Shown here piece after piece: positions 31,555-33,116 of a stretch of DNA of 61,625 nucleotides; the first letter of the stretch is position 1, and each line of letters begins with the position of its first letter. A program made the translations under genes and the position numbers. A model generated the notes under the pieces. That model was given only the letters and a program-made list of their open reading frames with translations, had not been told where the DNA came from and did not search any database. The DNA is from Lachnospiraceae bacterium (GTDB taxonomy: Bacteria > Bacillota > Clostridia > Lachnospirales > Lachnospiraceae). The DNA is taken from NCBI GenBank assembly GCA_022776305.1, contig JALFIB010000113.1:1-61625 (forward strand), in the 5' to 3' direction.

Positions 31555-31796
31555 GCGTTATAGGATAGACCCTGCCACGTGGGAGCGCAAAAATTATTCA
31601 TTATGACTTGAAATGTACAAAATTTAGTACAACATTTATTACAGCATTTGTGAGACCGATTTCAGCCTTTACCCATCTAATTGATGAAAGAGTTATAAGC
31701 CATGCGCTACGATGCGTTTGCCCGTGAGTGGTAATATGGCTGAATGACCTGGACAGCATGCATGTAAGAAAAAACGGCCGGAGGAAAGGAAAACAT

Positions 31797-33116
31797 ATGG
31801 ACAGACAACAACTGGGAGAATTGATTCTTGCTTCATCTGAGACCATGTACCGTGTGGCAAAATCGCTCCTTAGAAGAGATGCAGAGTGTGAGGATGCCAT
31901 TTCGGAAGCAATCGTAAAAGCTTTTGAAAAAATCCACACACTTCGTTTTGACCGGTACGGAAAGATCTGGCTGATCAGGATATTGATGAATGAATGTTAT
32001 AAGATCATGCGCAGGGAACAAAAGACCGTATCGCTGGAGGAATACCCTTTGGAGGGGAAAACAGAAGAGGGGGAAGATGAAACCTTTGAGATTCTTGATA
32101 CAAATATTGTGGAACGTGAGGAGAAAGACATAAATGGGCACAAATGTATTTTCCTGAAACGTGCTGCCCACGAGGGATTAGGGGTGGATTTTGACAGGAT
32201 CCTCTATGTGTCCTATCCGGAAGGAAACTTGATTCTCCAGATATATACGGCAGATAATGTGTCCGACGAAGAATTAATGAAATTTGTGGAAGGTATCAGC
32301 CTTGCAGAGTTTCCACAAGAAAAACAGAATGATTTTTGTGAGCCGCAAAGCTGGTCTGATTATTTATTGATGCTGAAAGAGGAGGATTATGCAGTTGCAG
32401 AGAGTGATTTCAAGCTGGAGGCTACGAAGCAGGAAATGGATCATCTCCATTCTGTGGGAAGCGAAGTAGACTTGGGAGACATGATCGCTGAAGATGAAGA
32501 GGGGAATAGTATTGAAACAAATGCTCTTACCGCTTGCGTGAAGGATGTGCAGATAGCAGAAGACTTAAGCTTGCTTGACTTTGATTACGTGGATGAAGAC
32601 CTGAAAGGACAGACAGATGAAAGCGGAAAGCTGCGTCCTGTAACGATACAGTATATGAAAGATGGTGACGGTATATCTACAGTAGATGAGACATTAAAAA
32701 CAGAAGAAATACAACAGTGTCTGGTATATGTGACGGTAGATTATAAAAACGCAGGTGATGTGACCCTTTATAACATACTTTTCTTTGCAAACATATTGAA
32801 GCTGCAGGAAACAGAAAAAGGCTACAGGATTTTTGACAGGGCAAGCCAGATGCAGGATCTGGATTGTGACACAGTTGTGAGTTCCGGCATGACAGATTCA
32901 CCGGAAATGGCCTATTTTGATGTCCACGGGGGAAACGGCAATGGGTCTAATTATATTGACGTCCTAGAACCGGGAGAAAGTAAAACCGTCCATATAGGAT
33001 TTTTGGCGAATAAGGATGAACTGGATCTGCTGTATCTGAACCTTGATGCAAGCGGAGCCGGTTATGAGTTTACGGAAAATAGCCTGAAAATCGGTTACGT
33101 GGATATCAGGCAGTAA
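31797..33116 (+). CDS. ECF sigma region-2 fused to DUF4367-like / sensor-type C-terminal domains (no region 4, no TM)
   Basis: N-term LILASSETMYRVAKSLLRRDAECEDAISEAIVKAFEKIHTLRFDRYGKIWLIRILMNECYKIMRREQKTVSLEE, then VDFDRILYVSYPEGNLILQIYTADNVSDEELMKFVEGISL and a long C-terminal region. Confidence 0.7.
   Translation: MDRQQLGELILASSETMYRVAKSLLRRDAECEDAISEAIVKAFEKIHTLRFDRYGKIWLIRILMNECYKIMRREQKTVSLEEYPLEGKTEEGEDETFEILDTNIVEREEKDINGHKCIFLKRAAHEGLGVDFDRILYVSYPEGNLILQIYTADNVSDEELMKFVEGISLAEFPQEKQNDFCEPQSWSDYLLMLKEEDYAVAESDFKLEATKQEMDHLHSVGSEVDLGDMIAEDEEGNSIETNALTACVKDVQIAEDLSLLDFDYVDEDLKGQTDESGKLRPVTIQYMKDGDGISTVDETLKTEEIQQCLVYVTVDYKNAGDVTLYNILFFANILKLQETEKGYRIFDRASQMQDLDCDTVVSSGMTDSPEMAYFDVHGGNGNGSNYIDVLEPGESKTVHIGFLANKDELDLLYLNLDASGAGYEFTENSLKIGYVDIRQ

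Follow-up and report, generated by a model that had tools for sequence, protein, structure and literature searches.

Within the window, the whole analysed stretch of 61,625 nucleotides from a gut bacterium, positions 31797-33116 of the forward strand form a single open frame of 439 codons, with a ribosome-binding site, GGAGGAAAGG, 5' of its ATG. A mechanical ORF caller had preferred GTG 31728 as the start, a choice that finds no support, since homologous sigma factors align from the ATG at 31797. The preliminary description, made from the letters of the sequence, had recognized an ECF sigma region 2 at the N-terminus (residues 1-84, 31797-32048, forward strand), and domain searches agree: Sigma70_r2 matches residues 16-76 of the complete protein (Pfam E=1e-8) as well as the N-terminal part scanned separately (E=8e-10), and NCBIfam ECF models cover residues ~1-98 and end there. 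Both absences reported there also hold. No region 4 family in Pfam or NCBIfam matches the fusion, and its highest 19-residue Kyte-Doolittle score is 0.91, compared with at least 1.58 in 78 orthologous anti-sigmas, which leaves no membrane span. When residues 97-439 were scanned separately, no Pfam or NCBIfam family was matched. The label "DUF4367-like" given to this part is nevertheless correct for residues ~96-166 (32082-32294, forward strand), because the full-length orthologous anti-sigma matches DUF4367 at its residues 161-268 (E=3.7e-7), as do 19 of 20 orthologous anti-sigmas in all; only the equivalent of ~198-268 is left in the fusion, a truncated domain without a Pfam match of its own. 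What had been set down as an acidic region of ~260 residues is not featureless: residues ~207-439 (32415-33113, forward strand), corresponding to the C-terminal part of the former anti-sigma, are predicted to form a beta-rich domain with most blocks above pLDDT 90, and DUF5067 is matched weakly by 8 of the 20 orthologs.

The nearest relative is a Lachnospiraceae MAG of the same genus (G010; JAUNGD010000009.1, locus L054), in which a 159-aa ECF sigma factor with regions 2 and 4 (E=3.8e-17 for region 4) and a 537-aa one-TM anti-sigma with DUF4367 are encoded by two genes overlapping via ATGA. The two loci share their surroundings, with an MBL-fold protein (88% identity), an ACT protein (97%) and a DUF711 protein (95%) upstream and an SH3/NlpC-P60 gene (53%) downstream, as well as their promoter motif, and both halves of the fusion are orthologous to the G010 genes: region 2 is 69% identical to the sigma factor and the C-terminal part 49% identical to the anti-sigma. 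The window differs in having one ORF, and amounts to a G010-type operon minus ~780 bp (G010 numbering), in frame. Together with the other two-gene loci described below, this syntenic locus bears out the earlier proposal that an in-frame deletion joined the sigma gene to the downstream TM anti-sigma gene, the sigma and DUF4367 parts being separate adjacent genes in the relatives.

The junction was mapped through the codons of the window and of the two G010 genes, because in a global DNA alignment the deletion was spread over numerous gaps. Residues up to ~95 track the G010 sigma factor and those from ~96 track the G010 anti-sigma from residue ~198, placing the junction at residues 89-96 (32061-32084, forward strand), in the acidic linker after region 2. 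Here the window reads GAA GAG GGG GAA GAT GAA ACC TTT, the G010 sigma gene GCG GAG CGG GAG GAT TAT and the G010 anti-sigma gene TTG GAG GAG GGC GAT ACC TTC. The deletion starts in the acidic linker that connects sigma region 2 to region 4 and ends inside DUF4367 (161-268); by alignment to the ortholog, the N-terminal cytoplasmic segment and the TM of the anti-sigma are missing from the fusion. Conserved domains that the intact orthologs have at this locus are thus lost from the fusion, as in a deletion remnant. Judging from this diverged relative, the deletion may have been guided by a short imperfect repeat at the G010 break points, in which 8 of 12 positions agree. As the G010 sigma and anti-sigma genes stand in different frames, one in three deletion length classes yields a fusion.

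In an AlphaFold2 model of the fusion (mean pLDDT 75.7), the region 2 helices are of low confidence, the join is disordered (residues 73-102) and the DUF4367 part is again of low confidence, with the beta-rich domain at ~207-439 predicted confidently. A model of the intact G010 anti-sigma has a helix at 15-47 and a hydrophobic helix at 60-81, followed by the DUF4367 region, whose strands before ~198 (including 156-160, 167-169, 174-177 and 184-192) are absent from the fusion; the two models were built from different alignments, which makes their confidence values only loosely comparable. The best Foldseek matches of the C-terminal domain include YxkC, 4les and YjhA, which we take to be DUF4352-type proteins, with probabilities of 0.89-0.98 and weak E values of 0.01-0.035. 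No Foldseek match fell below E=0.001, and the resemblance to YjhA and YxkC is therefore only a lead.

Among 47 genomes of the genus, the anti-sigma part was found in 18 others, 17 of which carry a full-length anti-sigma frame (511-595 codons). In G035 (L017, contig C40) an apparent single frameshift breaks the frame into pieces of 321 and 235 codons; this could be a sequencing error or a lesion that arose independently. When GTDB species genomes were scanned, some of them shared with the genus scan, 80 loci were obtained: 78 with both genes (in one, a contig edge cuts the sigma start) and two whose sequence begins at a contig edge. None of the 78 is a one-frame fusion, and the fusion is therefore private to the window's assembly. 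No scanned locus shows the same contiguous architecture, and the C-terminal part, rather than belonging to a sigma-appended family, is the anti-sigma's own C-terminus, so that neither of the findings that would have spoken against a deletion was made. In the contig profile search the fused protein alone found no relative and the anti-sigma alignment did. Two loci that begin near the fusion point (L104 and L127) were considered as truncated genes and discarded, both being contig edges. Trees built separately for region 2 and the C-terminal part both place the window as sister to G010, as expected of a deletion in place.

In G031 a 98-aa sigma frame is cut by the end of its contig (C186); its region 2 (L016 1501-1764) stops there at codon 88, near the window's fusion point. 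This region 2 is nearer to the window (72%) than that of G010, and the anti-sigma part was not found in the G031 genome. The short frame was not accepted as a true truncation, being cut by the contig end; it is possibly a related lesion, possibly chance.

The sigma/anti-sigma pair is itself unevenly present. In two close species whose DUF711 protein is 93% identical, G025 and G070, ABC transporter genes adjoin DUF711 at the position expected for the pair: in G025 (L194 2317-5839) there are two such genes, followed by the NlpC/P60 gene, and in G070 (L195 1128-2918) the contig ends. No match to the anti-sigma part was found anywhere in these two genomes. In G003 the pair and DUF711 are located on separate contigs. 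The system is therefore either dispensable or mobile in this group.

Upstream of the fusion lies a conserved ECF-type promoter, GAGACC-N16-CATCTAAT (31652-31681, forward strand), which scores 26.9 against a matrix built from 76 related operons with the window left out. All 76 related sigma genes that were tested, from loci within L054-L133, have the two-block motif with consensus GAGACCATTT-N12-CATCTAAT upstream, with CATCTAAT exact in 40 of them and a lowest score of 15.0, compared with 10.6 for the best shuffled control (n=231). A single strict match is found in each of three genomes, that of the window, G003 and G010, in every case 5' of the sigma/anti-sigma operon, and the other 43 genomes searched have none; many of the other genus members with the pair have promoter variants such as CGTCTAAA. 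Allowing one mismatch adds one site in G010 and none in G003 or the window's genome, and gives no site in G025 or G070. Within the window, further copies of the motif are no more frequent than expected by chance. Because strict matches lie only 5' of the operon in three genomes, the promoter looks autoregulatory, and from the distribution of the motif we infer a sigma factor that regulates itself and has few or no other targets.

The -10 element is read by sigma region 2 and the -35 element by region 4 (PMC6372665), and GAGACC should therefore be out of reach for a protein that lacks region 4; the window keeps the promoter, and the domain expected to read its -35 element is deleted. The distance from promoter to ATG is 115 bp in the window and 42 bp in G010, owing to ~75 extra leader bases at approximately 31690-31766 (forward strand; a 76-base gap in the pairwise DNA alignment). 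A 15-base word, GAATGACCNGGACAG, at 31742-31756 also occurs in the leaders of the distant orthologs L006, L007, L107, L109, L113, L116 and L119, and is absent from the sigma leader of the nearest relative.

Codon-model estimates of dN/dS were uninformative and were discarded: with respect to the nearest relative, synonymous sites are saturated both here and in the genes around the locus, and the fitted values for the C-terminal half came to lie at their bounds. The branch leading to the window is longer than that of G010 for region 2 (0.337 vs 0.110) and the C-terminal part (0.746 vs 0.406), and also for two neighbouring genes (0.101 vs 0.057 and 0.046 vs 0.007), so that loss at conserved positions may be lineage-wide. 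At positions conserved in at least 90% of sequences, the window retains 82% in region 2, the lowest value of 78 sequences (all others retain at least 92%), and likewise 82% in the C-terminal part, for which only two sequences are lower. Deviations private to the window against those private to G010 number 4 to 0 in region 2 and 5 to 3 in the C-terminal part, the corresponding figures for two control genes being 5 to 1 and 1 to 3. These small counts are suggestive at most of relaxed selection at conserved sites. Of 3951 possible single-base changes in the fusion ORF, 186 give a stop, from which at least one stop would be predicted in an ORF left unconstrained for more than ~0.05 substitutions per site. 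The 439 codons hold neither stop nor frameshift, meaning either a young deletion or a frame still under selection. Youth is the likelier of the two, given a fusion confined to one assembly and a domain cut through, and with ORF and promoter both undamaged the deletion is probably recent.

We therefore regard the fusion as probably a loss-of-function remnant, left by a young deletion in a dispensable, self-regulating ECF sigma/TM anti-sigma operon. In the intact relatives, the sigma factor, with regions 2 and 4, would most likely read its own GAGACCATTT-N12-CATCTAAT promoter and so make itself and the anti-sigma; from the anatomy of the latter, its N-terminal cytoplasmic helix would hold the sigma factor at the membrane, and DUF4367 and the beta-rich domain would sense the outside. 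The ~780 bp deletion would have taken sigma region 4 and, from the anti-sigma, the N-terminus, the membrane-spanning helix and the start of DUF4367. By chance the reading frame is preserved across the new join, which leaves a single ORF for a protein that would be cytosolic and would keep the module that binds core and the -10 element. This protein would be unable to read the -35 element, to be held at the membrane or to sense the outside, and for these reasons activity of the self-driven promoter would be expected to cease or to drop to a basal level. Decay is claimed only on the understanding that the event is young, because an older unconstrained ORF predicts a stop or frameshift. Two outcomes had been proposed for the fusion, a decaying locus and a new cytosolic regulator; the evidence favours the former over the latter.

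A working cytosolic regulator is unlikely, if the strongest of the alternatives. Region 2 would bind core RNA polymerase and the -10 element CATCTAAT alone, act with a separate region-4 protein in the manner of SigO-RsoA, or compete with other sigma factors, the former sensor domain modulating its activity. Such a role would fit the open 439-codon frame, the retained promoter, the acidic linker kept after region 2 and a C-terminal domain predicted to fold, and sigma subunits consisting of region 2 without region 4 do exist, as in RsoA of Bacillus subtilis, which works with SigO (PMC8103513). However, the region-4 partner of RsoA comes from the same operon (PMC8103513), and none is seen for the window fusion: no matching region-4 partner was found in its own genome, where a search with the G010 sigma factor yields, besides the window, only ECF paralogs that look complete (31-32%) and a single weak match to region 4 (E=0.3). 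Confinement to one assembly, a DUF4367 that is cut through and a region 2 that is the most deviant of 78 sequences at conserved positions also argue against a working regulator. We hold highly improbable its one-piece form, in which region 2 alone would bind core and the CATCTAAT -10 element under modulation by the formerly extracellular sensor domain.

It is also very unlikely that the fusion was produced by the assembler or belongs to a minor strain variant, in which case the majority sequence would still have both genes and ~780 bp would have been skipped in assembly. The quality of the genome (303 contigs, 89% complete, 6.4% contaminated) and the repeat at both G010 break points would allow for such an error, but a repeat of 8 alike bases out of 12 in the relative is far below usual assembler word lengths, the fusion lies mid-contig between conserved flanks, and the join is in frame, for which the chance is one in three. 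Moreover, the missing anti-sigma segment was found on no other contig: residues 1-200 of the G010 anti-sigma gave no match in the window's genome, in a search run without a positive control there.

A single-chain switch with proteolytic release is scarcely credible: although IutY of Pseudomonas putida (ECF243) and ECF48/52/53 likewise have sigma and anti-sigma parts in one polypeptide (PMC8999054), their sigma factors are fused to membrane-bound anti-sigma portions, with proteolytic release in IutY, whereas the window fusion, having no region 4, TM or N-terminal sigma-binding anti-sigma segment, is not a complete sigma factor plus membrane anti-sigma in one chain, and its DUF4367 is unrelated by name to their ZAS/FecR-type parts. 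The fusion lacks the defining features of IutY and ECF48/52/53 and has no known RsoA-style partner. ECF41-type sigma factors keep region 4 and carry a SnoaL-like domain. The window fusion, in contrast, has no region 4, and its extension is an anti-sigma fragment; what it has in common with ECF41 and other C-terminally extended ECF sigma factors is an extension in the same chain (PMC3426412).

As a remnant, the locus would represent an ECF switch lost in one step that still resembles a whole gene, and annotation pipelines would probably label the fusion a sigma factor. If the fusion were functional, it would be a sigma factor acting via region 2 alone. The more useful by-product is the conserved promoter motif, the strict form of which marks only its operon in the genomes tested. 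Among the ECF papers listed by a literature search, none was found to name DUF4367. Since the strict motif marks the operon alone, the DUF4367-linked ECF pair looks like a self-contained autoregulatory module, and the promoter motif provides a direct reporter with which such a module could be tested.
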